Shown here: piece after piece, positions 25,119 through 58,414 of the stretch
Numbering within the stretch: position 1 is the first letter of the stretch
Layout: every line of letters starts with the position of its first letter
Assembly: GCF_006715635.1 (NCBI RefSeq)
Contig: NZ_VFNP01000001.1
Coordinates: 1,240,001 to 1,304,000 of the forward strand
Source of the DNA: Streptomyces sp. SLBN-118
GTDB lineage: Bacteria; Actinomycetota; Actinomycetes; Streptomycetales; Streptomycetaceae
DNA length: 64,000 nt
Direction: 5' to 3'
Notes under the pieces: model-generated
Databases searched by the model: none
What the model saw: the letters and a program-made list of their open reading frames with translations, nothing else
What the model was told of the DNA's origin: nothing
Made by a program: the position numbers and the translations under genes

Positions 25119-26384
25119 TCAGTGCTGCCAGACCCTCACATAGTCGGTCATCATGTCGGCCGGGGTCACGAGCGGACCTCCGTGCTCGGTGCTGACGCCG
25201 TTGTTCAGGATCAGGTACATCGGGGACGAGGTGATGCCGGTCGTGATCTGGCCCACCTGCTTGCCGTCGTAGTAGTACGTGACGACTCCGGGCTTCCACT
25301 CGGCTCCGTACGTGTGCCATCCGGTGAAGTCACCGGGGGCGCAGCCGCCCGGGCCGCCCGACGGGGAGTGGAAGTGGTAGCAGGCCTTGCCGCCGCCGAG
25401 GCCCTCCATGACGTCCATTTCGCCGTCTTCCGGCCAGTTCTGCCCATCGGTCCAGAAGGCGGGCCAGTTGGCGATCACCCCAGGTGACGCCGCCGGGGTG
25501 TAGATCCTGGCCTCGAAGGCGCCGTAGGTGAACTGCGCCTTGCCGTCACTCTCGACCAGGCCGGAGCGGTAGGCGTAGGTCTTGCCGTCGGTCGCCGTGG
25601 TCTGCGCCTTCTCGGCCTTGAGGTGCAGGGAGCCGCCGCTGACGCTCACCTGGGACGGGGCGTAGGCAGCCAGCTCGGCGGAGTTGACCGGCTTCGTCGT
25701 GCAGGTGGGGCAGCCCAGCCAGTTCGGGTTCCACTTAGAACCGTCGAGGCTGGTGCCGTTGAATTCGTCCCCGAAGACCTGGCGCCAGGTGCCGGGGATA
25801 CCCGCCGGTGCGGCGCCGGTCGTCGACGTGGTCTGGCTGGGGGAAGGAGCCGGCGAGGTCGACGCAGTCGGGGTGGAGCTCGGACTGGTTGTGGAGGTCG
25901 AGGTCGGGGACGGGCTGGGCGATGCGGAAGCCGTCGCGCTGGGCGTCTGAGTGGCCGTGTCGCCGGAGGTGAACGTCTTCACCGGCGAGAGGTTGTGCCA
26001 GGTGTCGTGGTACTTGTACGCGACGAAGGCGGTGTACGTGCCGGCCGGGAATGTGCGGCTGCCGGAGGTGAATGTCGTCGGCGAGGGGCTCAGTTTCGAC
26101 GCCGACGCACCGGGGAAGTCGAAGCGGGAGCCGTCCGAGGACCGCACGGCGACGGTCAGGGCCTGCACCCGGAGCGTACGAGCGGAGTGGACCGTCGCAG
26201 TCGCCGTCAGCCCGCCGCTCGGTGCCGCCGAAACGGACAGCGAGTCGACGACCACGCCGGTCGACTGCTGCGACTGGCCCGCCCATGCGGCGCTGCCCAT
26301 CGCAAGGGCCGCGAAGGAAAGTACGAGGGCGGAAATCTTCGTCCGAGTGGTCAGCTTGCGGCGGTGTCTGGAATCTCTGGGCAT
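25119..26384 (-). CDS. Secreted GH16 glycoside hydrolase with Ig-like domain and Ser/Thr/Pro linker
   Basis: 421 residues from the ATG at 26384 (MPRDSRHRRK), with GAAAGG about 9 bp upstream. Signal peptide to about residue 36 (MGSAAWAGQS). An Ig-like module (~40-135) is followed by a ~60-residue Thr/Ser/Pro linker and a GH16 catalytic domain (~195-421) with GEMDVMEGLG supplying the E-x-D-x-x-E catalytic residues, and FTGWHTYGAEWKPG. The terminal TDYVRVWQH mirrors the other GH16 protein of the window. Likely an extracellular beta-glucanase. Together the two GH16 genes bracket the glycan region. Confidence 0.9.
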   Translation of the reverse strand: MPRDSRHRRKLTTRTKISALVLSFAALAMGSAAWAGQSQQSTGVVVDSLSVSAAPSGGLTATATVHSARTLRVQALTVAVRSSDGSRFDFPGASASKLSPSPTTFTSGSRTFPAGTYTAFVAYKYHDTWHNLSPVKTFTSGDTATQTPSATASASPSPSPTSTSTTSPSSTPTASTSPAPSPSQTTSTTGAAPAGIPGTWRQVFGDEFNGTSLDGSKWNPNWLGCPTCTTKPVNSAELAAYAPSQVSVSGGSLHLKAEKAQTTATDGKTYAYRSGLVESDGKAQFTYGAFEARIYTPAASPGVIANWPAFWTDGQNWPEDGEMDVMEGLGGGKACYHFHSPSGGPGGCAPGDFTGWHTYGAEWKPGVVTYYYDGKQVGQITTGITSSPMYLILNNGVSTEHGGPLVTPADMMTDYVRVWQH

Positions 26385-26882
26385 GAATGGATGACCTTTC
26401 GCCCCCCACATCAGGCAATAGGCCTGCCATTGCACGGAGCAAAAGCGGGCTGAAGGACATGGACTCTGCGCGAGCCGAATCCGGCACGCAACCGCCTCGT
26501 TGCCCTCCCACCCGAATCCCCGAGTTCACTGACCCTCAGGACTTAAGACACAACGCCGAGTTGGCGAGACTCGGCGCCTTTTATGTGATATCCGCCATAG
26601 CGAATTACATTTCACTCAAATAGGACGAACGCGATGCAATAGAAACGCCCCATTTACGCCGAAGGTGAAGTATTACCGACCCGCCGAGAATCAGTGAGAC
26701 GCCCCACGGGGCCGACATGCGGAGAAAGACCTCGACGCCTGGGCCCGGAGTCTCTCCAGACCTCCGGTCGCCACCCGCCCAAAGCAGACATATGATCAAA
26801 AAAGCCAATGGCCAGGCCCGCCGTTGCCCAGCAGACAGCGGTGCAGTCCCCGCTGTCCGATGGTGGTAGGAGGGGGTGCGCA
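26385..26882. promoter_or_regulatory. AT-rich divergent intergenic region
   Basis: About 500 bp between the GH16 gene and the GGDEF-EAL fusion. The part at 26525-26700 is unusually AT-rich for this genome and holds the perfect hairpin at 26554-26576 followed by CCTTTT. No ORF here looks real. Probably promoters of both genes plus a terminated short transcript or leader. Confidence 0.4.
26554..26582 (+). terminator. Intrinsic terminator-like hairpin without an upstream gene
   Basis: CGCCGAGT (26554-26561), loop TGGCGAG, ACTCGGCG (26569-26576), then CCTTTT. The perfect 8-bp stem plus T-tract on the plus strand is the best textbook terminator in the window, yet the genes on both sides are divergent, so no known coding transcript ends here. 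Confidence 0.6.
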
Positions 26883-29800
26883 TTGACCCGGTTCCAGCGA
26901 CTGATGGCCGGATACTTCGTCGTCGTGATCCCGCTCACCGTCGTGTACCTGACGATTCCGGGCAGCCGCGACGTCACCTGGGCCGCCATCGGCATCCTCG
27001 GCGTCTGCGCCATTCTCCTGGGCATCCGGATCAACCGGCCGACCCACCGCTGGCCGTGGTTGGTGCTGGCCGCCGCCGCGTTCACCTTCACCGTCGGCGC
27101 CACCACTTACAACATCCTCAACACCTTCTTCAACCAGCAGAATCCATTTCCCTCACTGGCCGACGTCTTCTATCTGGCGGCGTATCCGCTGTTCGCCATC
27201 GGGCTGTACGGGTTCATCAGGTATCGCGCGACAGGGCGGGATCTGGCGAATCTGCTGGACGCGTTGATCCTGGCCTCCGGCCTGGCTCTGCTTTCCTGGG
27301 TCTACCTGATCGCGCCTTATGCCGAGGCCGCCGACATGACCTGGACTCAGCGAGCGATCTCGATCGCCTACCTGGTCGGTGACGTGCTGATGCTGGCGAT
27401 GCTCGTGCGGCTGCTCGCTCCCGGCGATGTGCGCGGCCCTGCGATTCAGCTCCTCACCGTCGGCACGCTCGGCATCCTCTGCTCCGACGTCCTCTACAAA
27501 CGTCTCCAGCTCAATGGAACCTGGCGGGACGGCACCCCGATGGATCTGGGCTGGGTCGTCTTCTTCACCGCCTGGGGTCTGGCGGCGCTGCATCCCTCCA
27601 TGGTGGAACTGACGGCACGAATGCCCGAGCGGCGCCCGGGCATCCGCGTCCGGCGGCTCGTCATACTCGCCCTGGCCGCGCTGGTCGTTCCCTCAGTGCT
27701 CCTGTACGAATCCCTGAGCGGCTCTGTGGACGATGCGGCTGCCATCGCGGTGGGCTCGATCGTTCTCTTCCTCCTCGTACTCGCCCGTCTTTCGGTCCTG
27801 GTCGCATCCCAATTGAAGGCCGTGAGCCGCGAACGGGGCCTTCAGGCCGGGGCCGCGTCGGTGGTGGCGGCGGCCAGCCTGAAGGAGATCGCGAATGCGG
27901 TCCAGGGAGCGGCGGACGTGTTCTTCGGGGCGGGGACGCCCCACGAGGCCGTCCTGCTGACCACGGACCAGGGTGAGTCCAGGCTCCACAGCGTGCGCAC
28001 GACGTCGCGCGTCTGGGACTGGCGCCTCGACTGGACCGACGAGACCGCTGAGGCGTGGCTGCCCGCATTCCTCGCCCGTGAGACGCAGGTCGTGGGGGTC
28101 GAGGACCTCGGGGAGTCCGCAGCCTCCGAGTTGGGGGACCTGCCATACGCACTGCTGTGTCCGCTGTCCTTCCCGGACCGCCCGACCGGTGACTCGCTGG
28201 TCGGTGCGCTGGTCGTGGCGGGGCCGGAGCGGAGCCTGGCGGAATTGCGGGGGTCGTTCGAGACCCTGGCCTCGCAGGTCGCGCTGGCGGTGGAACGCGT
28301 CGCGCTCGACAAGGAGGTCAACCGCCGCAACAGTGAGGCGTACTTCCGCACCCTCGTGCACAACGCCTCGGACGTCATCCTGATCCTCGACGACGACAAC
28401 ACCATCAAGTACGCGAGCCCGTCCGCCGAGGGCATGTTCCGCCGGTCCCCGCTGTACGGAGTGCGACTCGGCGACCTGGTGGCGGACCAGGACAGTGAGC
28501 GGGCGATGGAGTCGCTGGCGCGGATGCGCACCGAGGACGACCTGGACAGCCGCGACGACTGGCAGGTCCTGCAGCAGGGTGGCGCACTCATCGATGTGGA
28601 GGTCCGATGCAGCAATCTGCGGCACGACCAGACCGTCCACGGGCTGGTCCTCACGCTTCGGGACGTGACCGAGCAGCGCAAACTGGAGCAGGAACTCACC
28701 TACCGCGCCTTCCACGATTCACTCACCGGCCTCCCCAACCGCGTGCTCCTGCTGGAGCGCATCGAGCGCGCGCTGCTGCGCGGACGCAGGGCCTCCACGC
28801 TCACCTGCGTACTGTTCGTGGACCTGGACGAATTCAAGATGGTCAACGACACGAGGGGCCACCCGGTGGGGGACGAACTCCTCGTGGCCGTGGCCCGGCG
28901 GTTGACCGGAACACTGCGGGTCAGTGACACGGCGGCGCGTCTGGGGGGTGACGAGTTCGCTGTGCTCATGGAGGGTGCAAAGGAACCGGCAGCCGCGGAA
29001 GTGCTCGCGGGACAGATCATCCAGAGCCTCTCCCAGCCGTTCCGGCTCTCGAGCGGGATGGTCAGCATTTCGGCCAGCGTGGGGATATCCAGCGCGCAGG
29101 ACAGCTCCAACGCGGAAGAACTGCTCGCACACGCCGACTTGGCCCTGTACGCCGCGAAAACGGCCGGGAAACGGCAGTGGCGCAGCTATCAGGCGCAGTT
29201 GAACGCCGGAATGCTGGAGCGGCACGAGCTCCAGGCGAGCCTTGAAAGCGCCATCGCCGCCGAGGCGTTCCATGTGCGCTATCAGCCCATTGTGGAGATC
29301 GCCACCGGCGAGGTCGCCGGCTTCGAGGCGCTGGTCCGCTGGCCGCAGGACCGGCGCGGTCTGGTGCCTCCCGACCAGTTCATCGCGCTCGCCGAGGAGA
29401 CCGGGCACATCATGCCGCTCGGCGGCTGGGTGCTCGAACACGCCGCCGCCCATGTGGCCCGCTGGCAGCGGGTGGTGCCACGGCCGGAGCCCCTGAACCT
29501 CAACGTCAACGTGTCAGCCCGTCAGTTCCGCGACCCCGGGTTCCTCGACCAGGTGCGCCGCGTCCTCGACACGTCCGGCCTGGCGAGCGGTTCGCTGGTG
29601 CTGGAGTTGACGGAGACCGTCCTCATGAATCGCGACGACCAGATACGGTCGGTGATGAGGACGCTGAAGGAACTCGGTGTGGGGATGGCCATCGACGACT
29701 TCGGCACCGGCTTCTCGTCGCTCAGCTACCTCCGTGAATTCCCGATCGACGTGCTCAAAGTCGACAAGTCGTTCATCGACGACATCAGCGTCGACGAACA

Positions 29801-31364
29801 GCAAGTCGCCCTGGTCGAAGGCATTGTGCGCATTGCCGACACCCTTGGCCTCCAGGTCATAGCCGAAGGCATCGAAGAGGTGGAGCAGCGCGACCGGTTG
29901 GCGGCCATCGGCTGCCGGTTCGGGCAGGGTTATCTGTTCGCCCGCCCGATGACAGCGGACCAGGGCGAACAACTCCTCAGGAGCGCCAGCGAACACCAGG
30001 CCCCACGGCTGATCAGCAGCACGACGACGCGTCGGACGGCCCGCATTCGCCGGAGCACCGCCGACGTGGGCCCGCTGTCGTCGACCGGTGGTGAAGGCGC
30101 GGTCGACGACGCTCACGCGCGCAAGACGCTGACACCCAGCGACGTGCGACGCGACCCACGCTGGGGAGACCTCGAACACCTGCGGCGTTCCAGCCCGATG
30201 TGCGATGCGGTCATCGACGAGGTCCGCGGCCGGCACCTGCGCTGCGGTGACCACTGGCTCATCGACTTCGCGTCGTGCAACTTTCTGGGCTTCGACCTCG
30301 ACCCCGAAATCATTGACGCGATCGAGCCACAGGTACATCGTTGGGGCACCCACCCGAGCTGGTCGCGGCTGAACGGCAGTCCCAGCCTCTACCCGGAGAT
30401 CGAGGAGCGGCTCACCGAACTGCTCGACGCGCCCGACACGTTGCTGCTCCCGACCATCACGCTCATCCATGCCTCCGTGATCCCGGTGATCGGCGGCGAG
30501 GGCCACATCTTCATCGAGGCACGCGCACACCGCACGGTCTACGACGGCTGTCTGGTCGCCCGGGGACACGGCGCCACGGTGCAGCGGTTCCATGCCGAGC
30601 GGCCGGACGAACTCGACGCTCTGCTGCGCACCGCTCCGGCCGATTCCACCCGGCTGGTGTGCCTGGACGGGGTCGACAGCATGAGCGGGAACCTGCCCAA
30701 CCTGGCTGAACTGGCGGGTGTCTGCCGGGCTCGGGACGCATTGATGTACATCGATGACGCGCACGGCTTTGGGATCATCGGCGAACGCCGTGCCGACGAG
30801 ACGTCCCCGTACGGCTCCCGCGGCAACAGCGTCGTCCGCCATCTCGGGGAGACCTACGACGACATCATCCTGGTCGGCGGATTCTCCAAGGCGTACTCGT
30901 CCATGCTGGCGTTCCTTGCCCTTCCGACATGGCTGAAGGACCATCTCAAGGTCGCCGCCGCACCGTACCTCTACTCCGGATCCGCGCCAACGGCCTCGCT
31001 CGCCACCGCGCTCGCCGGCCTGGATGTCAACGACCGGCGGGGTGACGCCATCCGCGCCGATCTGCATCGCAAGACGATGCGCGTACTGGACCATGTCAGC
31101 GCCCTTGGCATCTTCACGCCCAACACCACTGGGCTGCCCGTCATCGGGATTCCGCTCGCCGAGGGCTCGGATCTGGATGCGGCCGCGAAGTTCCTCTGGG
31201 ACCACAAAATCTACGTCACGCTTGCGGCCTATCCGATTGTCCCGCGTGATCGGGTCGGAGTGCGGATCCAGGTCACCGCCAAGAACAGCGATGAGGACAT
31301 CGACCGGCTCAACGAGACGCTTTCGGCCTTCGCCGAGCGGTTCGAACTCCAAATGCGGCCCTGA
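26883..31364 (+). CDS. Membrane GGDEF-EAL c-di-GMP protein fused to a PLP-dependent alpha-oxoamine-synthase-family domain
   Basis: About 1493 residues from a TTG at 26883 that has AGGAGG 9 bp upstream; an in-frame start at 26808 lacks an RBS. Residues ~5-310 contain about eight to ten membrane helices. A GAF-like region (~330-465) and a PAS domain (~475-595) follow. The GGDEF domain has RLGGDEF near 688 and an intact RxxD inhibitory site five residues before it. The EAL domain (~770-1035) keeps FEALVRW, ELTET, DDFGTG, KVDKSF and GQGY, so both enzymes look active. After a ~50-residue linker, residues ~1088-1493 form a full alpha-oxoamine-synthase fold with CNFLGF, IDDAHGFG and the PLP Lys in GGFSKA (Lys1336). 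Confidence 0.88.
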   Translation: MTRFQRLMAGYFVVVIPLTVVYLTIPGSRDVTWAAIGILGVCAILLGIRINRPTHRWPWLVLAAAAFTFTVGATTYNILNTFFNQQNPFPSLADVFYLAAYPLFAIGLYGFIRYRATGRDLANLLDALILASGLALLSWVYLIAPYAEAADMTWTQRAISIAYLVGDVLMLAMLVRLLAPGDVRGPAIQLLTVGTLGILCSDVLYKRLQLNGTWRDGTPMDLGWVVFFTAWGLAALHPSMVELTARMPERRPGIRVRRLVILALAALVVPSVLLYESLSGSVDDAAAIAVGSIVLFLLVLARLSVLVASQLKAVSRERGLQAGAASVVAAASLKEIANAVQGAADVFFGAGTPHEAVLLTTDQGESRLHSVRTTSRVWDWRLDWTDETAEAWLPAFLARETQVVGVEDLGESAASELGDLPYALLCPLSFPDRPTGDSLVGALVVAGPERSLAELRGSFETLASQVALAVERVALDKEVNRRNSEAYFRTLVHNASDVILILDDDNTIKYASPSAEGMFRRSPLYGVRLGDLVADQDSERAMESLARMRTEDDLDSRDDWQVLQQGGALIDVEVRCSNLRHDQTVHGLVLTLRDVTEQRKLEQELTYRAFHDSLTGLPNRVLLLERIERALLRGRRASTLTCVLFVDLDEFKMVNDTRGHPVGDELLVAVARRLTGTLRVSDTAARLGGDEFAVLMEGAKEPAAAEVLAGQIIQSLSQPFRLSSGMVSISASVGISSAQDSSNAEELLAHADLALYAAKTAGKRQWRSYQAQLNAGMLERHELQASLESAIAAEAFHVRYQPIVEIATGEVAGFEALVRWPQDRRGLVPPDQFIALAEETGHIMPLGGWVLEHAAAHVARWQRVVPRPEPLNLNVNVSARQFRDPGFLDQVRRVLDTSGLASGSLVLELTETVLMNRDDQIRSVMRTLKELGVGMAIDDFGTGFSSLSYLREFPIDVLKVDKSFIDDISVDEQQVALVEGIVRIADTLGLQVIAEGIEEVEQRDRLAAIGCRFGQGYLFARPMTADQGEQLLRSASEHQAPRLISSTTTRRTARIRRSTADVGPLSSTGGEGAVDDAHARKTLTPSDVRRDPRWGDLEHLRRSSPMCDAVIDEVRGRHLRCGDHWLIDFASCNFLGFDLDPEIIDAIEPQVHRWGTHPSWSRLNGSPSLYPEIEERLTELLDAPDTLLLPTITLIHASVIPVIGGEGHIFIEARAHRTVYDGCLVARGHGATVQRFHAERPDELDALLRTAPADSTRLVCLDGVDSMSGNLPNLAELAGVCRARDALMYIDDAHGFGIIGERRADETSPYGSRGNSVVRHLGETYDDIILVGGFSKAYSSMLAFLALPTWLKDHLKVAAAPYLYSGSAPTASLATALAGLDVNDRRGDAIRADLHRKTMRVLDHVSALGIFTPNTTGLPVIGIPLAEGSDLDAAAKFLWDHKIYVTLAAYPIVPRDRVGVRIQVTAKNSDEDIDRLNETLSAFAERFELQMRP

Positions 31365-31438: not shown

Positions 31439-33250
31439 CTACGCTCCGGCCGGATTGCGGCCCGCTTCCGCCTCCGCCTCCCGCAGAGTGAAGGCCGTGT
31501 TGACCAGCGCGATATGGCTGAACGCCTGTGGTGTGTTGCCGAGTTGGCGGCGGATCACCGGGTCCCACTCCTCGGAGAGCAGCCCGACATCGTTACGCAC
31601 GTCGAGCACTCTCTCGAACACCGCGCGGGCCTCGTCCGGGCGCCCGGTGGTGGCCAGCGCGTCGGCCAACCACATCGAACATGCAAGGAAGGCACCCTCC
31701 GAGCCACGCAGCCCGTCCACGTCGTTCACCATGTGGTCCTGGCTTGCGTAGCGCCGCAGGAAGCCGTGGTGATCCAGCGTCCTGACCGCCGCCACGGTGC
31801 CGAGCACCCGGGGATCGTGAACCGGAAGGAAGCCCACTCTGGGGATGAGCAGCGCGGAGGCGTCCAGTACAGGGGCCCCGTAGTACTGCACGAAGGACCC
31901 CTTCTCGTCGTTCCAGCCGTCGCGGCACACCTCCCGGTGGATCTCTTTGCGCATGGCCCGCCATCGCTCCACCGAGTCGGTGCGCCCGGCCAGCTTCCAC
32001 ATCCGCAGGGCGCGGTCCACGGCCACCCAGCACATGATCTTGGAGTGGACGAACTGCCGCCGTGGGCCGCGGACCTCCCACAGCCCCTCGTCTGGCTCGC
32101 GCCAGTGCTCTTCGAGGTAGCTCATGAACGCGTGGACGAGGCTCCAGACGTGGCGCTCCATGGGGACACCGGACCGCAGGGCCAGATACAAGGCGTCCAG
32201 CACCTCGCCGTAGACGTCGAGCTGGAACTGCCCCACCGCCGCGTTTCCGAAGCGGACCGGCTCCGACCCCTCGTAGCCGGGCAGCCAGAAGGCCGACGAC
32301 TCTTCCGGCAGCCGCCGCTGGCCGGCCACGCCGTAGAGCGTCTGCAGGTCCGCCGGATCGCCCGCCATGGCGCGCAGAAGCCAGTCCGTCCAGGACACCG
32401 CCTCCTCCCGGAAACCGCTGCGCAGCAGGCAGGAGAGGGTGAGAGTGGAATCGCGGAGCCAGCAGAACCGGTAGTCCCAGTTCCGCTCACCGCCGATGCT
32501 CTCGGGCAGGGACGTCGTCGGCGCGGCGACGATACCCCCGGTGGGCGCGTAGGTGAGCGCCTTCAATGTGATCAAGGAGCGCACCACCGCGTCCCGCCAG
32601 GGTCCCTGGTAGCGGCACTTCGCCGCCCAGCGCTCCCAGAAATCGAGGGTTTCCAGCAGTGCGGTCGCCGGGTCCTCGGGCGGCGGGACCGGCATGTGCG
32701 AGGGTGACCAGCTGAGCATGAAGGCGAGGGTCTCGCCTTCCCGGACGGTGAAGTCGAAGTAGGTGCAGTCGTCGGTGGCGCGCACATCCACGCGCTGGTC
32801 GGCGCTCAGCCATGCGGAGTCGGGTCCGGCGACCGAGACCACGTAGGTACCGCGGGTGCGCGTCCAGGGAACGACACGGCCGTGGTTGAACCGGAGCCTC
32901 AGTTCTCCGCGCATGGCCACGGTCCCGGAGAGACCTTCCACGATGCGCACGACATGAGGCAGGTCGGCACGCGGAGGCATGAAGTCGGTGACGCTGACCG
33001 CGCCGTCGACCGAGTCCCAGATGGAGTCCAGCACAAGGGTGTCGCCGCGGTACGACCGGCGGTTGCACTGACTCCCGCCGACGGGCGAGATGCGCCAGTA
33101 CCCATTGTCGGGATTCCCGAGAAGCGCGGCGAAACAGGCAGGAGAATCGAAGCGGGGCACGCACAGCCAGTCGATCGCCCCGTCGCGGCTGATGAGGGCT
33201 GCCGTCTCAAGATCACCGACGACGGCATAGTCCTCGATCATCCCGGCCAT
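31439..33250 (-). CDS. GH15 family glycoside hydrolase (glucoamylase/trehalase-like)
   Basis: 603 residues with no signal peptide, so it is cytosolic. The N-terminal beta-sandwich begins IEDYAVVGDLETAALISRDG as in bacterial GH15 proteins. The (alpha/alpha)6 domain carries RNWDYRFCWLRDS near residue 260 and the second catalytic region GLLSEEWDP near 563. This subtype usually cleaves trehalose or maltodextrin with inversion. Length is normal. Promoter in the 320-bp gap toward the laccase gene. An in-frame ATG three codons downstream is an alternative start. Confidence 0.92.
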   Translation of the reverse strand: MAGMIEDYAVVGDLETAALISRDGAIDWLCVPRFDSPACFAALLGNPDNGYWRISPVGGSQCNRRSYRGDTLVLDSIWDSVDGAVSVTDFMPPRADLPHVVRIVEGLSGTVAMRGELRLRFNHGRVVPWTRTRGTYVVSVAGPDSAWLSADQRVDVRATDDCTYFDFTVREGETLAFMLSWSPSHMPVPPPEDPATALLETLDFWERWAAKCRYQGPWRDAVVRSLITLKALTYAPTGGIVAAPTTSLPESIGGERNWDYRFCWLRDSTLTLSCLLRSGFREEAVSWTDWLLRAMAGDPADLQTLYGVAGQRRLPEESSAFWLPGYEGSEPVRFGNAAVGQFQLDVYGEVLDALYLALRSGVPMERHVWSLVHAFMSYLEEHWREPDEGLWEVRGPRRQFVHSKIMCWVAVDRALRMWKLAGRTDSVERWRAMRKEIHREVCRDGWNDEKGSFVQYYGAPVLDASALLIPRVGFLPVHDPRVLGTVAAVRTLDHHGFLRRYASQDHMVNDVDGLRGSEGAFLACSMWLADALATTGRPDEARAVFERVLDVRNDVGLLSEEWDPVIRRQLGNTPQAFSHIALVNTAFTLREAEAEAGRNPAGA

Positions 33251-51764: not shown

Positions 51765-51923
51765 GTGAAAGTTCCGTACAGGAGATATATCTCCTGTCTG
51801 GTGGTCTCGGCGGTGGCGGGAACGCTGCTGCCGCAGGTCGCTTATGCGGCCCCGGCGTCGTCGTCGGATGACGGCGGTAAGGGGATCGTCGATCGACGGA
51901 CACCGGTATCGCCCGGTCGCTGA
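51765..51923 (+). pseudogene. Detached signal-peptide segment of the RHS protein
   Basis: From the GTG at 51765, with AAAGGG about 7 bp upstream, a frame encodes a clear Sec signal (KVPYRRYISCLVVSAVAG, cleavage near AYA-AP). It stops at 51923 after an acidic segment. It is in a different frame from the RHS body, which has a stop at 51878 when read backwards. About 60 residues usually found between signal and first domain seem to be missing, so the original gene has a deletion and frame change here. Confidence 0.6.
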
Positions 51924-51955
51924 TCAAGTTCCCGCTGAGTGAGGTCCCGGCGGGC

Positions 51956-54900
51956 GTGAAGGTCGATGCCGCCCGCCTGGAGATGTACTACGACCAGGCG
52001 CACACCACCAACTCCAACGCGGTGACCCTGGAGGCGCACCGGGCGACGGGTGCGTGGGACGAGACGACGGCGACGTGGTCCAACACCAGTGCTTTGGCGG
52101 GTGAGTTGTCCGCCACCACCGTCATGATCGATGACGGGGCTGTGGGGACGGCGGCGGTTGGCGAGTGGCCGGGGGGCACCACGACTGGTGGGGCTGCGAC
52201 CTACGACGATTTCGCGTACAACAAGAACGCGTTGACGGGTGAGTCGTACTCCTGGCAGCCGCAGGTGGCGGAGAGCGATTCCTACCGGGTGGATGTGCAC
52301 TACCCGGCGGCGGCGGACGCGGCCACGGCAGCCCCGTACACCGTGAACTACAACGGCGGTACAAAGAATTACACGGTCAACCAGACCGGTACGGGCGGGG
52401 TCTGGAAGACCCTGGATGCCGCCGAGTACAGCTTCGTCAAGGGCAACACCGGCAAGATCGTGCTGGGTGACACGGGCAGCTCGACGACGCGGACGCTGGC
52501 GGACTCGGTCCGGCTGGTGAACCCGGCTCAGATCGTGAAGCCGGTGGGCAAGTACAACCAGTGGCACAAGTTCCCGGTGACCGACACGGTCCAACGCTGG
52601 GTGTCCGGGGTCAATCCCAACTACGGGTTCGTGGTGCAGGCCAAGGACGACACCCTGGCCGGGACGCTGACCGGCGGTCCGCGCTACGAGGCGGGCGACG
52701 GCGACTACGGTGGTGAGACCTCCACCATTCCGCGCCTGACCGTCACCTACGGCAAGATCGGCACCGCGCTGAACTCCCCGACCGTGGTGCACTCCACGGG
52801 CCCGGAGCTGTCCTGGCCCGCGTATGTGAACACCAGCGGCGCGGCGAACGACGACATCGTCGAGTACCAGCTGCACCGCTCCACGCAACAGGTCTTCACC
52901 CCGTCCGCCGCGACCCTGATCGCCCCGATCGCGTCCACGGCGACCTCCTACACGGACACCACGGCGGTACCGACCCCCGACTCCAGCTCCTCGGAGATCG
53001 GGAAGTCGTACTTCTACCAGCTCGCGGTCAAGACCAAGAGCGGCGAGCTGCTCGGCTCGCCGACCCGGGTGGTGGGCATCCCCAAGGCCGGCCGGACGAT
53101 GAAGATCATCCAGGCGGGTCAGACGGACACCACGCTGTCCTCCGCGCAGCCCACCGTCAACCAGGACGCCATCCAGTCCTTCGGTGTGGGCCAGACTTGG
53201 CTGAGTGTCGGCAACAACTCCACCACGTACGGCAAGACCCGCGCGGTGCTGAAGTTCCCCACCACTGACATTCCCACCACCGCCACGGTGCTGGAGAACA
53301 AGATGTACATGTGGGGAGCGGAGACCACCAGCACCACCAACGGTGCCATCTACGAACTCCACTCACTGACCCGCGACTTCACCGAGACCCAGGCCACCTG
53401 GAACAACGCCACGTCCACCACCGCGTGGACCACCCCGGGCGGCGACATGTCCGCCACCGTCGCCGACACCGTCCCCCAGATCACCGACGAAGTCGGCCGC
53501 CACTGGTGGGACGCCACCGGCCTCATGCAGTCCTGGGTACGCACACCCGCCAACAACAAGGGCGTGGCCGTCAAGCTGAAGGACGAGACGACCACCGGCC
53601 CGCAGGAGCGCACTCTGTTCCTGTCGTCGGAGGCCTCCGACCCGCAGCTGCGCCCGTACATGCAGGTCATCTACGTCGACTCCACCACGGAGGACACGTA
53701 CTACGCGCCGCAGACGCCGGCCCGGATGACGCCGAACTCGCAGTACACGGTCGAGTTCACGGTCACCAACACCACGTCCACGACGTGGGCTGCGGGTGAG
53801 CGGGAGCTGTCGTACACCTGGAAGCTGCCCGACGGCACGGACATGACCAACGGCGGCAACCAGCTGTCGACGGCCATTCCGGCGCTGCTGCCAGGCAAGT
53901 CCGCGACCATCCAGGCGCAGGTCAAGACCCCCATCAATTCGGACAACGGCTCCAAGCGCACCGAGTACGTGCTGGGCTGGGACGTCCGCAAGATCTCGGA
54001 CGGCAGCTGGCTGTCGGCCGGGACGGGCGCCATTCCGTCGCTGAAGCAGAACGTGGCGGTGGAGGACCCGACCTCGAACGACCTGGGTCTGGAGAAGTTC
54101 TACTCCTACACCGGCAAGAACACCGGCGCCGGCTCCACGGTCATGAACAACCTGGCCTCGGGCAACAGCGTCTGGTCGTACAACGCGTTCACGAACCCGG
54201 GCCGGGGCCTGAGCACCTTCGCCCGTTTCTCGTACAACTCGCTGGACACGAGCGACACCGTCGCTGGTCACGGCTGGTCAATTCAGGCGGCAGGTCCCAT
54301 CCGACTGGGCGCCCCACTGGACTTCCACCCCAACCCGAACCCGACGGAGATCCGTCTCCCCGACGGCGACGGCACCACGCACATCTTCCGCTGGGACAGC
54401 ACCAACTCGGTGTGGAAGGCCCCCGCCGGTGTGCACTACAAGGTCACGATGAAGTCCGGCCTGGACTGCAAGCCGACCAAGGACCCAGTACCGGATGCCT
54501 GGACGCTCACCCGTCCTGACGGCACCCGCTTCCTGTTCGGCTGCGACGGCTACATGACGTCCACGGTCGACAAGAACGGCAACACGCAGACGTTCACCTA
54601 CGAGGAGCGCAAGTCCAACAACAAGCCGACCAAGTTCCTGACCTACATCACGGACCCGGCCGGCCGTCAGTCGCTGACCATCACCTACTTCAACAAGGGT
54701 GACGCGTCCTACGACTACATCAACGCCACAGGCGCCAAGGTCACCGGCACCAACCTCACCAACTCCAAGATCTACGACCACGTGAAGTCCATGACGGACA
54801 TATCCGGTCGCAAGATCTCCTTCTACTACACCGACAAGGGCCTGCTGGGGCAGTTCACCGACGGTGACGGCTTCGTGCAGCCGAAGGTGTTCAAGTTCAC

Positions 54901-57900
54901 CTACGATGCCACGCAGGGGAACAAGAACGTCAAGCTGGTCAAGGCCACCGACCCGCGCGGCAACGCCACCAACATGGCGTACTACGCGCCGCAGGCCGGT
55001 GACGACCCGAAGTACCACTGGTGGACCAAGACGATCACCGACCGTCTCAACGGGAACACCGGCTTCGCCTACGCGGTGAACGCGGGCAACACCAAGTTCG
55101 TCGACACCACGGTCACTGACGCGGAGACACACGCCACCAAGTACGTGACGGACGACTTCGGCCGCCCCGTCCAGACGACCAACGCCAAGTCCCAGACCAC
55201 CAAGATGAGCTGGGACGCGGACAACAACGTCACCTACCTCGAAGAGGCCAACAACGCCAAGACCGCGTACTGCTACGACCAGAAGACCGGCTACCCGCTG
55301 TGGTCGCGTGACGCCGAGAACAACAAGGCAGGGGTCCCGCCGTCCTCGGACTGCGCCCCGGGCACCTACCCGGCCAACGCGCAGAAGTACGAGTACCAGA
55401 CCCGGCTCGACGGCTACTCCGCCGACCTGTTCACCAAGACCTCGCCCGAGGGCCGCAAGTGGCAGTTCGGCTACGACGCCTTCGGCAACCTGAAGACGGT
55501 CACCGATCCCAAGGGGGTCGCCACCGCCACCGTGGACGACTACACCACCAAGTACGAGTACGACGGCTACGGTCAGCTGACCAAGGCGACCGACGCCAAC
55601 GGCAATCCGACGACCAACAGCAACTTCGGTCCGACGGGCTACCCGGCGACCATCACCGACGCGCTCGGCAAGTCGACTTCGTACGTGTACGACGCACGTG
55701 GCCAGGTCACCGAGGTCACCGACGCGCTGGGCAAGAAGACCACGCAGACCTACGACGTCTATGGGCGTCCGCTGGTCAACACGGTGCCCAAGGACCAGAA
55801 CACGGGCCTGCTCATCACCACGCCCGCGCCGGTGTACGACGCCAACGACAACGTCACCACGTCGACCGCGCCCAATGGTGCCGTCTCCACGGCGGTGTAC
55901 GACAAGGCCGACCACGTCAGCGAGGCGACCGTGCCGAAGGACACGGCCACCTCGGACGAGCGGAGGACGGCATACACCTACGACAAGGCCGGTCACCTCA
56001 AGACGACGACGGAGCCCAAGGGAACGCTGACCACGGCCGATCCGAACGACTACGTCACCACAAACAACTACGACGAGATCTACCAGCTCACCTCGGTGGT
56101 GAACGCCGACCAGGACAAGTTCTCCTACGAGTACGACAACGTCGGCAACGTCACCAAGGTCATCGACCCGAAGAAGAACGCCACCGCCGACACCACCGAC
56201 TACACCACCAAGTCCGACTACGACCTGAACCACCGGGTCGTCACCGCCACGGACGCCGCGGGCAAGACCACCAAGAAGGCCTACGACAAGGACTCCCTGG
56301 TCGTCTCCAACACGGACGCCGAGAACAACACCGCGCTTGTCACCTATGACGAGCGGGGCAAGCAGACCGAGGTCAAGGTCCCGTACTCGGGCACCTCGCC
56401 GATCACCTACCGCTCGACGAAGTTCGAGTACGACCAGGCCGGCAACACCACCAAGGTGATCACGCCCAGGGGCGTGGCGACGGCTGCCGCGGATGACTTC
56501 ACCGCGCGTACCGAGTACGACGCGCTGAACCGTCCGGTGAAGCAGTACCAGCCGTACGACCCGGCGGACTCCCGCTACAACAAGGCGGACGTCTACACGC
56601 GGACCGACTACGACGCGGTGGGCCGTGTCGACACGACCTCAATGCCGCCGTCGGAGGGCGAGACGGTCCGCAACGACACCACGTTCAGCTACTTCGACAA
56701 CGGCTGGGCCAAGTCGTCCACCGACCCGTGGGACATCAAGACCACTTACGACTACAACGAGTTGGGCAAGCAGACCGCTCGCACGCTCACCTCGGCCGGC
56801 GGGTCCTCGGACCGAACCATGTCGTGGTCGTACTACCCCGACGGCAAGCTGAAGTCGAAGTCCGACGACGGCGTGCCGGTGGGCAAGTCGGTGGTCCTGA
56901 ACGACAACTCCGACACGCAGAACACGTCCTCGACGGGCACCTGGGCGAGGGGCGACATCACCGGCCAGCAGGGATACGACCACCGCACGCATGCCGCGGG
57001 CAGTGGCACCGACGCGTTCACGTGGACGCTGAACATCCCGAAGGACGGCACGTACACGGCGTACGTGAAGTTCCCGAAGGTGACCGGCGCCGCGACCACG
57101 GCGAAGTACACGCTCACGCACGGTACGACGACCGAAACGGCCGTCACCAAGGACCAGAACGCGAACACCGGTACGTGGGTCAACCTCGGCTCCTACTCAC
57201 TCAAGCAGGACGAGGACACCAAGCTGAGGCTGGACCAGAACAGCGGCGGCATCGCCGTCGCCGACGCGGTGAAGCTGGTGCGGGACACGGCAGGTGATCC
57301 CGCCGACACGGAGAAGAAGTCCTTCGCGTACGCCTACGACGCCAACGCCAACCTGACGTCGATCGACGACACCTCGTCCGGGGCGAACATCGACGCCTAC
57401 ACGGTCGCCTACTCCGGTCTCAACGAGGTGCAGAAGGTCACCGAGGCGCTGTCCGGGCAGGAGAAGAAGGCCACGTCGTTCACCTACGACGCCAACGGGC
57501 AGCCGGAAACGGTCACGCACCCGGACCAGTTCTCCAAGTACACCTATGACCTGCGGGAGTTGGTGGAGAGCATCTCGGTCGGCAAGAGCGCCACGGACGC
57601 TGACCCGAAGGTCACGTCCTACACCTACACCGACCGCGCACAGAAGCTGAAGGAGACGAAGGGCAACGGCAACACCGTCGACTACACGTACTACCTGAAC
57701 GGCACCGTCGCGTCCACGACGGAGAAGAAGCCGAACGGCTCCCTGGTCGCCTCGCACTCCTATGCCTACGACCCGAACGGCAGCAAGGCGCAGGACGTCG
57801 CGAAGAAGATGAACGCCGACGACCACGCAGCGTACCTCTCCTCGACGACCGACTACACCTACGACCCTGTCGACCGGCTGGCCAAGTCGGTCAAGTCCGG

Positions 57901-58414
57901 CAACGGCGCGGGCACGGAGACGTACGTCCACGACGACAACGCGAACGTCGTCAGCCAGTCGGTGGGCGCGACGAGCAGCACCTACGAGTATGACCGGAAC
58001 CGCCTGCTGTCGATGACGACGGGCGGTGCGACGGCCAGTTACACCTACGACCCGTTCGGGCGGCAGGAGTCGGTGACGGCCCAGGGCAAGGTCATTCAGC
58101 GCAGCGTCTACGACGGATTCGACCACGTCGTGGAGTCCCAGAAGATGGACGACACCGGCGCGCTGAAGTCGACGGAGTACAGCTTCGACCCGCTGGACCG
58201 CACCACCTCGAAGACGGCGGACGGCAAGACCACCGCCTACGAGTACCTGGGTATGTCCGATGAGGTACTGGACGAGAAGGTCGGCAGTCAGCTGACCAAG
58301 TCGTACCAGTACAGCCCATGGGGCGAGCGACTGTCGCAGATCAAGCACAACACCGACGGCACGACGGAGGACGGCTACTACGGATACAACAGCCACACCG
58401 ACTCGAGACCCTGA
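51956..58414 (+). CDS. RHS/YD-repeat secreted protein, main body (lacks in-frame signal and C-terminal tip)
   Basis: 2152 residues. Homology-like sequence starts before the GTG at 51956 (TGIARSLIKFPLSEVPAG from 51902). Several DNRLRE-type modules (each with ATW..TA... and VQRWV-like motifs) and a golvesin-like module fill the first ~750 residues. About 1200 residues of YD repeats (YDxxGxxxxxTDxxG type) follow, with another golvesin-like module near residue 1680. The frame ends abruptly at DSRP after GYYGYNSHTD, exactly where the RHS core should continue. Such proteins form a hollow beta-cage that delivers a toxin tip. The present gene looks disrupted. Confidence 0.85.
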   Translation: MKVDAARLEMYYDQAHTTNSNAVTLEAHRATGAWDETTATWSNTSALAGELSATTVMIDDGAVGTAAVGEWPGGTTTGGAATYDDFAYNKNALTGESYSWQPQVAESDSYRVDVHYPAAADAATAAPYTVNYNGGTKNYTVNQTGTGGVWKTLDAAEYSFVKGNTGKIVLGDTGSSTTRTLADSVRLVNPAQIVKPVGKYNQWHKFPVTDTVQRWVSGVNPNYGFVVQAKDDTLAGTLTGGPRYEAGDGDYGGETSTIPRLTVTYGKIGTALNSPTVVHSTGPELSWPAYVNTSGAANDDIVEYQLHRSTQQVFTPSAATLIAPIASTATSYTDTTAVPTPDSSSSEIGKSYFYQLAVKTKSGELLGSPTRVVGIPKAGRTMKIIQAGQTDTTLSSAQPTVNQDAIQSFGVGQTWLSVGNNSTTYGKTRAVLKFPTTDIPTTATVLENKMYMWGAETTSTTNGAIYELHSLTRDFTETQATWNNATSTTAWTTPGGDMSATVADTVPQITDEVGRHWWDATGLMQSWVRTPANNKGVAVKLKDETTTGPQERTLFLSSEASDPQLRPYMQVIYVDSTTEDTYYAPQTPARMTPNSQYTVEFTVTNTTSTTWAAGERELSYTWKLPDGTDMTNGGNQLSTAIPALLPGKSATIQAQVKTPINSDNGSKRTEYVLGWDVRKISDGSWLSAGTGAIPSLKQNVAVEDPTSNDLGLEKFYSYTGKNTGAGSTVMNNLASGNSVWSYNAFTNPGRGLSTFARFSYNSLDTSDTVAGHGWSIQAAGPIRLGAPLDFHPNPNPTEIRLPDGDGTTHIFRWDSTNSVWKAPAGVHYKVTMKSGLDCKPTKDPVPDAWTLTRPDGTRFLFGCDGYMTSTVDKNGNTQTFTYEERKSNNKPTKFLTYITDPAGRQSLTITYFNKGDASYDYINATGAKVTGTNLTNSKIYDHVKSMTDISGRKISFYYTDKGLLGQFTDGDGFVQPKVFKFTYDATQGNKNVKLVKATDPRGNATNMAYYAPQAGDDPKYHWWTKTITDRLNGNTGFAYAVNAGNTKFVDTTVTDAETHATKYVTDDFGRPVQTTNAKSQTTKMSWDADNNVTYLEEANNAKTAYCYDQKTGYPLWSRDAENNKAGVPPSSDCAPGTYPANAQKYEYQTRLDGYSADLFTKTSPEGRKWQFGYDAFGNLKTVTDPKGVATATVDDYTTKYEYDGYGQLTKATDANGNPTTNSNFGPTGYPATITDALGKSTSYVYDARGQVTEVTDALGKKTTQTYDVYGRPLVNTVPKDQNTGLLITTPAPVYDANDNVTTSTAPNGAVSTAVYDKADHVSEATVPKDTATSDERRTAYTYDKAGHLKTTTEPKGTLTTADPNDYVTTNNYDEIYQLTSVVNADQDKFSYEYDNVGNVTKVIDPKKNATADTTDYTTKSDYDLNHRVVTATDAAGKTTKKAYDKDSLVVSNTDAENNTALVTYDERGKQTEVKVPYSGTSPITYRSTKFEYDQAGNTTKVITPRGVATAAADDFTARTEYDALNRPVKQYQPYDPADSRYNKADVYTRTDYDAVGRVDTTSMPPSEGETVRNDTTFSYFDNGWAKSSTDPWDIKTTYDYNELGKQTARTLTSAGGSSDRTMSWSYYPDGKLKSKSDDGVPVGKSVVLNDNSDTQNTSSTGTWARGDITGQQGYDHRTHAAGSGTDAFTWTLNIPKDGTYTAYVKFPKVTGAATTAKYTLTHGTTTETAVTKDQNANTGTWVNLGSYSLKQDEDTKLRLDQNSGGIAVADAVKLVRDTAGDPADTEKKSFAYAYDANANLTSIDDTSSGANIDAYTVAYSGLNEVQKVTEALSGQEKKATSFTYDANGQPETVTHPDQFSKYTYDLRELVESISVGKSATDADPKVTSYTYTDRAQKLKETKGNGNTVDYTYYLNGTVASTTEKKPNGSLVASHSYAYDPNGSKAQDVAKKMNADDHAAYLSSTTDYTYDPVDRLAKSVKSGNGAGTETYVHDDNANVVSQSVGATSSTYEYDRNRLLSMTTGGATASYTYDPFGRQESVTAQGKVIQRSVYDGFDHVVESQKMDDTGALKSTEYSFDPLDRTTSKTADGKTTAYEYLGMSDEVLDEKVGSQLTKSYQYSPWGERLSQIKHNTDGTTEDGYYGYNSHTDSRP

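Follow-up and report, generated by a model that had tools for sequence, protein, structure and literature searches.

The window analysed here, the whole stretch of 64,000 nucleotides from Streptomyces sp. SLBN-118 (contig NZ_VFNP01000001.1, positions 1,240,001 to 1,304,000), carries on its + strand a gene that joins in one reading frame a membrane domain, a PAS domain, the GGDEF and EAL domains of a cyclic di-GMP (c-di-GMP) enzyme, and a pyridoxal phosphate (PLP)-dependent alpha-oxoamine synthase (AOS) domain. The window's membrane domain was found in the AOS gene or within 7 kb of it in 96 of 96 loci examined by tblastn. We favor, tentatively and with a probability of about 0.47, the reading that the synthase is kept with a cognate membrane sensor in the manner of CqsA/CqsS, mostly with c-di-GMP output, and that the two are fused in most Streptomyces loci. 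The strongest argument for sensing is that the membrane domain stays constant while the outputs attached to it change.

The synthase and its membrane partner across actinobacteria

Searching with the AOS part among similar full-length proteins gave 497 scored proteins. The best 120 of these were 71-100% identical. A single Streptacidiphilus was the only entry named to species that did not come from Streptomyces, and GGDEF, EAL and Aminotran_1_2 occurred together in nearly all of the 120. AOS proteins mostly of about 416 aa were 66-76% identical (best 120 of 6231), three of these 120 being pieces that bear an EAL part. The AOS was present in 17 of 101 genomes of the genus (E 1e-40), and in 63 of 293 genomes of the order and 25 of 396 of the phylum (E 1e-80). 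Loci with flanks came from 96 of 98 distinct AOS-positive genomes (G164 and G264 were omitted) and were classed by tblastn; 60 are from Streptomyces, the window included, and 36 from the sister family and other actinobacteria, including Rubrobacter.

Fusion in one frame was confined to the window's genus, where it occurred in 52 of the 60 loci (52 of all 96), the other eight being split. All 36 loci from other genera had separate genes, giving 44 separate-gene loci among the 96, mostly with the genes next door to each other; a few lay on short contigs or were broken (L036, L145). The preliminary description, made from the window's letters alone, had proposed seeking the same architecture in other actinomycetes, and it was indeed found in other Streptomyces; it had also named homologues with the two parts always separate as evidence against its reading; separation is the rule outside Streptomyces and in eight loci within it, and fusion prevails in the other 52. 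The architecture had also been put forward as new; the fusion is real, but the protein occurs widely in Streptomyces, is not peculiar to the window's genome and has database entries.

A named set of 75 loci (from the best 80 of 552) overlaps the 96-locus set, and its tallies are not frequencies. It held at least 35 fused Streptomyces loci, including S. lydicus, S. noursei, S. zaomyceticus and S. tanashiensis, and at least nine loci with a separate AOS (Dactylosporangium, Pseudosporangium, Couchioplanes, Catellatospora, Jidongwangia, Streptacidiphilus and three metagenome-assembled genomes); the Streptacidiphilus AOS spans two frames. In L036 (G009) and L222 the AOS lies over two frames, as decayed copies or sequence errors, and the L036 membrane domain is likewise in two pieces.

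The membrane domain is usually next door to the AOS, on either side and in varied gene orders. The front 360 residues matched no Pfam family, and the predicted model has about ten helices followed by a long output helix. Foldseek gave no useful match to this fold (best E 0.12) and a PDB sequence search no match, which does not establish a new fold. GGDEF-EAL accompanies the membrane domain in most loci, and in four the sensor found was a histidine kinase. The L087 sensor is a membrane-PAS-HATPase-receiver protein in which HisKA matched weakly; after it come a LuxR-type regulator, an MFS_3 protein and the AOS. L091 and L104 have membrane-HisKA_3-HATPase proteins, and the L116 kinase (Rubrobacter tropicus) is a hybrid that bears two receivers plus an Hpt domain. 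Because a kinase replaces GGDEF-EAL in these four loci, the constant partner of the AOS appears to be the membrane domain rather than GGDEF-EAL. Both sensor kinds occur in L086 and L090, and L092 has two membrane-domain genes, the second with GGDEF. As a contrast from the window's own genome, none of its 12 GGDEF genes comes within 150 kb of either of the two other AOS-like genes.

The kinases bear on our main rival explanation, c-di-GMP regulation of a metabolite: the AOS would make a non-signal compound, such as a lipid or secondary metabolite, and the sensor and c-di-GMP domains would control when or where the AOS works. Such control was the idea of the preliminary description. In L087 and L116, where the sensor is a kinase, the 7 kb around the AOS yielded no GGDEF gene. 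L091 and L104 show a similar picture, but their contigs stop there, which leaves L087 and L116 as the only clean kinase cases. That AOS and sensor are separate proteins in 44 of the 96 loci also speaks against such control. Kinases in place of GGDEF-EAL favor sensing over an action of c-di-GMP on the synthase, and we consider regulated biosynthesis unlikely.

Co-inheritance was followed in quick trees, the AOS tree being used unrooted and for groups only, and the sensor tree being thinned at 90% identity. In the AOS tree, 35 non-Streptomyces sequences fell on one side with good support. Several groups were common to both trees, for instance one that joins the window to L119 and one made up of L028, L121 and L146, and AOS and membrane-domain pairwise distances were correlated among 59 Streptomyces loci (r 0.89; 0 of 999 permutations as high). 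AOS and sensor are inherited together, with shared species history contributing. Of 21 truly AOS-less rows in the sensor tree (L105 and L222 were excluded since they have an AOS), 19 formed one clade with support 91, made up of Streptomycetaceae and one Nocardiopsis metagenome-assembled genome; the two outside it were Asanoa L225 and S. ipomoeae L232.

Fused and split forms were mixed in the Streptomyces part of the AOS tree, with at least four changes forced by well-supported branches, and the split genes in L023, L025, L026 and L118 lie 15 to 18 bases apart (as placed by a simple gene picker). Both observations would suit a neutral fusion by stop loss between operon neighbors, with co-expression as the only link between the parts. 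Against this stand the conservation of the neighborhood across the phylum despite different gene orders and output domains, and the retention of the fusion in 52 of 60 Streptomyces loci; we regard co-expression alone as improbable.

The fused protein and its AOS domain

The + strand reading frame is uninterrupted from 26808 to 31364 and has 1518 codons counted from its first ATG; residue numbers throughout refer to this 1518-aa frame starting at ATG 26808. The TTG at 26883, also the start chosen in the preliminary description, is the better start because a Shine-Dalgarno sequence precedes it at nine-base spacing. The features are as follows.

26868..26873, + strand: Shine-Dalgarno sequence AGGAGG, nine bases 5' of TTG 26883
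26883..31364, + strand: fused gene, membrane domain-PAS-GGDEF-EAL-AOS, 1493 aa (1518 from ATG 26808)
26883..27890, + strand: membrane domain (MEM), modeled with about ten helices plus an elongated output helix (pLDDT 85.6); present by tblastn in 96 of 96 AOS loci
28359..28679, + strand: PAS domain, residues 518-624, Pfam PAS_4, 36.3 bits
28707..29174, + strand: GGDEF domain, residues 634-789, Pfam
28917..28928 and 28938..28958, + strand: I-site RVSD and RLGGDEF, respectively, inside the GGDEF domain
29238..29948, + strand: EAL domain, residues 811-1047, Pfam, 253.5 bits
29949..30149, + strand: EAL-to-AOS linker, no Pfam domain matched
30150..31361, + strand: AOS domain, from Pfam, NCBIfam, alignment and AlphaFold
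30528..30530, 30753..30764, 30888..30890 and 31263..31265, + strand: AOS sites His, DDAH, PLP lysine and Arg, respectively

The resulting 1493-aa protein falls inside the length range of full-length relatives (mostly 1425-1573 aa among the best 120 of 497). The database record of the window protein begins further in, giving 1486 aa, and is labeled 'aminotransferase class I/II-fold pyridoxal phosphate-dependent enzyme'.

The single in-frame fusion described at the outset is confirmed: the frame is open, and 51 further genomes of the same genus carry the fusion in frame, which rules out a sequencing artefact or chance open frame and, with it, the stop or frameshift between the EAL and PLP parts that had been held out as a possible refutation. 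The fused loci of the named set also speak against a sequencing artefact. The gene is flanked on the - strand by a GH16-type gene (25119-26435) and a GH15/trehalase-like gene (31439-33250); no conserved gene was found adjoining it. Since both neighbors run on the other strand, the window's fused gene stands alone, unlike most of its relatives.

The GGDEF motif, the I-site and the EAL signature residues are all intact in the window protein, in agreement with the earlier description of an intact GGDEF with its RxxD site and an intact EAL domain. RLGGDEF and RxxD are retained in 52 of 52 fused proteins, the window's among them, and the EAL motifs are retained across the fused proteins save for single departures (LELTQT and VVADGIE among the variants listed). 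By motif comparison, the protein thus has the active site, I-site and EAL signature of a bifunctional GGDEF-EAL protein. Of the GAF/PAS-like regions also described, Pfam recovered the PAS domain but no GAF domain.

AOS enzymes form aminoketones by decarboxylative condensation of amino acids with acyl thioesters. The window's domain is a full one, as had been proposed: Pfam placed Aminotran_1_2 at residues 1250-1503, a bioF-type NCBIfam model matched residues 1139-1505 under its cut-off, and alignment with SPT identified the catalytic residues H1241, D1316, H1319, K1361 and R1486. Their counterparts—which we take to be the PLP lysine, the Asp and His of DDAH, a ring-stacking His and a carboxylate-binding Arg—have a conservation of 0.99-1.0 among 94 sequences phylum-wide. 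The AlphaFold model of the AOS part (pLDDT 90.4) matched solved AOS enzymes, so that the predicted structure is that of a fold type I AOS. The synthase is intact at the sequence level and would be expected to catalyze the condensation.

With the AOS part alone, scores against curated models were 164.9 bits for TIGR00858 (BioF; cut-off 426.45), 149 bits for NF047599 (SPT; cut-off 500) and 57.4 bits for NF005526 (PRK07179, covering CqsA/LqsA; cut-off 428). By these cut-offs, the window AOS belongs to neither CqsA/LqsA, BioF nor SPT, and orthology to CqsA is ruled out. Identity to SPT, BioF, KBL and ThaOS was about 20-26%; the window AOS differs from these in lying under the equivalog cut-offs and in being fused to, or near, a sensor. 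The next closest proteins, among the matches listed, were AOS proteins linked to an acyl carrier protein (ACP) or a polyketide synthase (PKS). In the FAAL-ACP-AOS and PKS-ACP-AOS megaenzymes, the AOS is about 40% identical and is fused to acyl-loading domains, not to a sensor. In two Rubrobacter-group loci, AOS, AMP-binding and carrier domains share a single frame, and the same membrane sensor as in the window lies beside them. In L116 (7309-10806), the AMP-ligase/carrier/AOS protein is divergent from the membrane sensor, which is on the hybrid kinase; in L117 (9230-12682), the sensor is on a PAS-GGDEF-EAL protein and the genes overlap by four bases.

A methyltransferase-like gene and an exporter

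A gene of about 258 aa resembling amine N-methyltransferases lies 3' of the AOS on the same strand in 59 of the 60 Streptomyces loci, at a median gap of 32 bases; the window is the sole exception. It comes closest to two families, the amine methyltransferases of the NNMT/PNMT/TEMT group and the SCO2525 methyltransferases. With Pfam PF01234 (cut-off 25), L180 scored 28.0 bits and the other five of six scanned scored 20.4 to 24.7; all 14 of the 14 genes compared with the SCO2525 family matched it, one of them (the first) under the cut-off. The best solved match was indolethylamine N-methyltransferase (INMT), with NNMT and PNMT also among the closest.

The gene also tracks the AOS among genomes. 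In 101 Streptomyces genomes, strong matches (≥59% identity) occurred in 16 of 17 AOS-positive versus 0 of 84 AOS-negative genomes (Fisher 1e-17, uncorrected for genome relatedness), and 13 of the 84 had distant kin only. Five of the 16 strong matches contain one stop codon in the aligned stretch. The sole AOS-positive genome without such a match was the window's own, which has none. In L179, L191 and L200, the similarity 3' of the AOS was weak or spread over several frames, as in degraded copies or sequence errors, and the fused gene is open there. Behind the AOS of L199, which among the named loci is the closest to the window, no methyltransferase similarity was seen, and the same held for the non-Streptomyces loci.

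An MFS_3 exporter lies within 5 kb of the AOS in 10 of the 36 non-Streptomyces loci, several of them on short contigs; eight of these ten loci themselves supplied MFS_3 queries. MFS_3 genes lie between the AOS and the methyltransferase in L119 (= L190), L180, L201 and L222, and the only Streptomyces with MFS_3 directly behind the fused gene were L119 (= L190), L180 and L201. A 262-aa open reading frame behind the AOS in L107 was considered as a third member and dropped, its translation being of low complexity, with no family and no match elsewhere in the loci searched.

The presence of a methyltransferase and an exporter suggests that a small molecule is completed and then exported. Both bear also on the idea that the AOS-like domain is an input module whose binding of PLP, an acyl thioester or an amino acid informs GGDEF-EAL of metabolism, much as an aminotransferase-like domain acts as an input module in MocR regulators. 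Fusion at the C-terminus of a signaling protein would fit this idea, as would the fact that catalytic competence is a prediction; retention of the AOS catalytic residues in 93 or 94 of the 94 sequences does not fit it, and the separate-gene forms, the methyltransferase-like gene in Streptomyces and the exporters near the AOS in other lineages all point to a product. We judge an input module highly improbable.

Sensing and comparison with known systems

For the product of the AOS cassette, its role as a signal and its sensing, we infer the following scheme. The window protein would represent, in fused form, an ancient cassette of actinobacteria that consists of an AOS and a membrane sensor of about ten helices. 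From an amino acid and an acyl thioester, the AOS would make an alpha-aminoketone, which in most AOS-bearing Streptomyces would be N-methylated and would then leave the cell. The membrane domain would sense this compound, the cell's own or its neighbors', and its state would pass via the long helix and PAS domain to GGDEF/EAL, giving a local or global shift in c-di-GMP; elsewhere, in certain lineages, this sensor domain would instead drive a histidine kinase. In Streptomyces, c-di-GMP acts on BldD and RsiG. As the window strain has no such methyltransferase, its product may be unmethylated or its pathway reduced. A bolder version, which is possible but which we doubt, is that the protein is a quorum device in a single molecule, in which the synthase of a signal is covalently tied to the multi-helix membrane receptor for that signal, with c-di-GMP as output. 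It would then represent a family, so far undescribed, of actinobacterial aminoketone signals that are made by AOS enzymes, are often N-methylated and share a receptor domain wired to c-di-GMP enzymes or histidine kinases.

Several observations weigh against a cognate synthase-sensor pair, chief among them the frequency of the membrane domain without an AOS. It occurred in 88 of 396 phylum genomes (E 1e-10) versus 25 of 396 for the AOS at its stricter threshold, so that the two counts differ in threshold; the window's own genome has six membrane-domain matches, one of them AOS-linked; and at least 31 of the 75 named loci bear this sensor type with no AOS in the stretch examined, two of these sitting on contigs that break off. 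With the membrane domain this common without AOS, its ligand may lie elsewhere or differ between paralogues. Adjacency of AOS and sensor may reflect co-regulation only, and in L091 and L104 a GGDEF-EAL gene may lie just beyond the contig edges. Among the 60 Streptomyces loci, the exporter was seen only in L119, and the window gene is adjoined by neither methyltransferase nor exporter. The AOS part is nearer to SPT, BioF and KBL than to CqsA. The suggestion of the preliminary description that a CqsA-like logic may be involved was right.

AOS-less membrane-PAS-GGDEF-EAL relatives include one in the window's own genome (G000:C2:2298688-2299662) and 29 named loci (e.g., L204, L206, L218, L221). 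The neighbors of such relatives may include another ligand-making enzyme.

CqsA and LqsA make signals of this aminoketone kind and their genes neighbor a sensor kinase gene (PMC3566124, PMC5289986); the cqsA, lqsA and jqsA genes adjoin that of the cognate kinase (PMC3566124). The cassette shares with the alpha-hydroxyketone signaling pairs CqsA/CqsS, LqsA/LqsS and JqsA/JqsS the placement of a gene for a PLP-dependent AOS-fold synthase beside a membrane sensor gene and, as in CqsS-type pairs, versions with a kinase and response regulator occur (L087, L091). It is unlike CqsA/LqsA in its mostly c-di-GMP output, covalent fusion, methyltransferase-like and MFS_3 partners, and actinobacterial hosts. 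The parallel with CqsS/LqsS is drawn from gene arrangement. By arrangement and curated models, then, the cassette resembles AOS-synthase/sensor pairs yet lies outside CqsA/LqsA membership. A CqsS receptor joined to adenylate cyclase confers a response to CAI-1 (PMC4821796).

The front part of the fused protein has the same domain order as S. venezuelae CdgF (vnz02140), a 10TM-PAS-PAC-GGDEF-EAL protein predicted to be bifunctional (PMC6205966). An AOS domain goes unmentioned in that paper's passages on CdgF, S. venezuelae is not among the 75 named loci, and CdgF may be of the fused or the AOS-less kind. If CdgF is the fused protein, a further point against the cognate-sensor reading is that cdgF deletion gave no developmental phenotype (PMC6205966). 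CdgF function was still undefined in 2026 (PMC13232838), and no description of the fusion or cassette was found in the open-licence literature available, itself seen in part.

What tunes c-di-GMP in Streptomyces development is, to our knowledge, largely unknown. As of 2018, the signals for the N-terminal domains of Streptomyces c-di-GMP proteins were not known (PMC6205966). The cassette offers a candidate ligand source and a candidate receptor domain for this control, and its separate-gene forms allow either part to be deleted without the other. Should the ligand prove to be the AOS product, actinobacteria would have a signal made by an AOS, and a small molecule would be directly linked to c-di-GMP in an antibiotic-producing genus.

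Elsewhere in the window's genome, two GGDEF genes lie about 3.5 kb apart (G000:C1:469289 and 472837), the second sharing a 1107-codon open frame with a membrane-domain match (473341-474291). The window itself also contains, at 51920-58414 on the + strand, a long open frame (about 2160 codons) whose third codon positions are GC-rich (high GC3).

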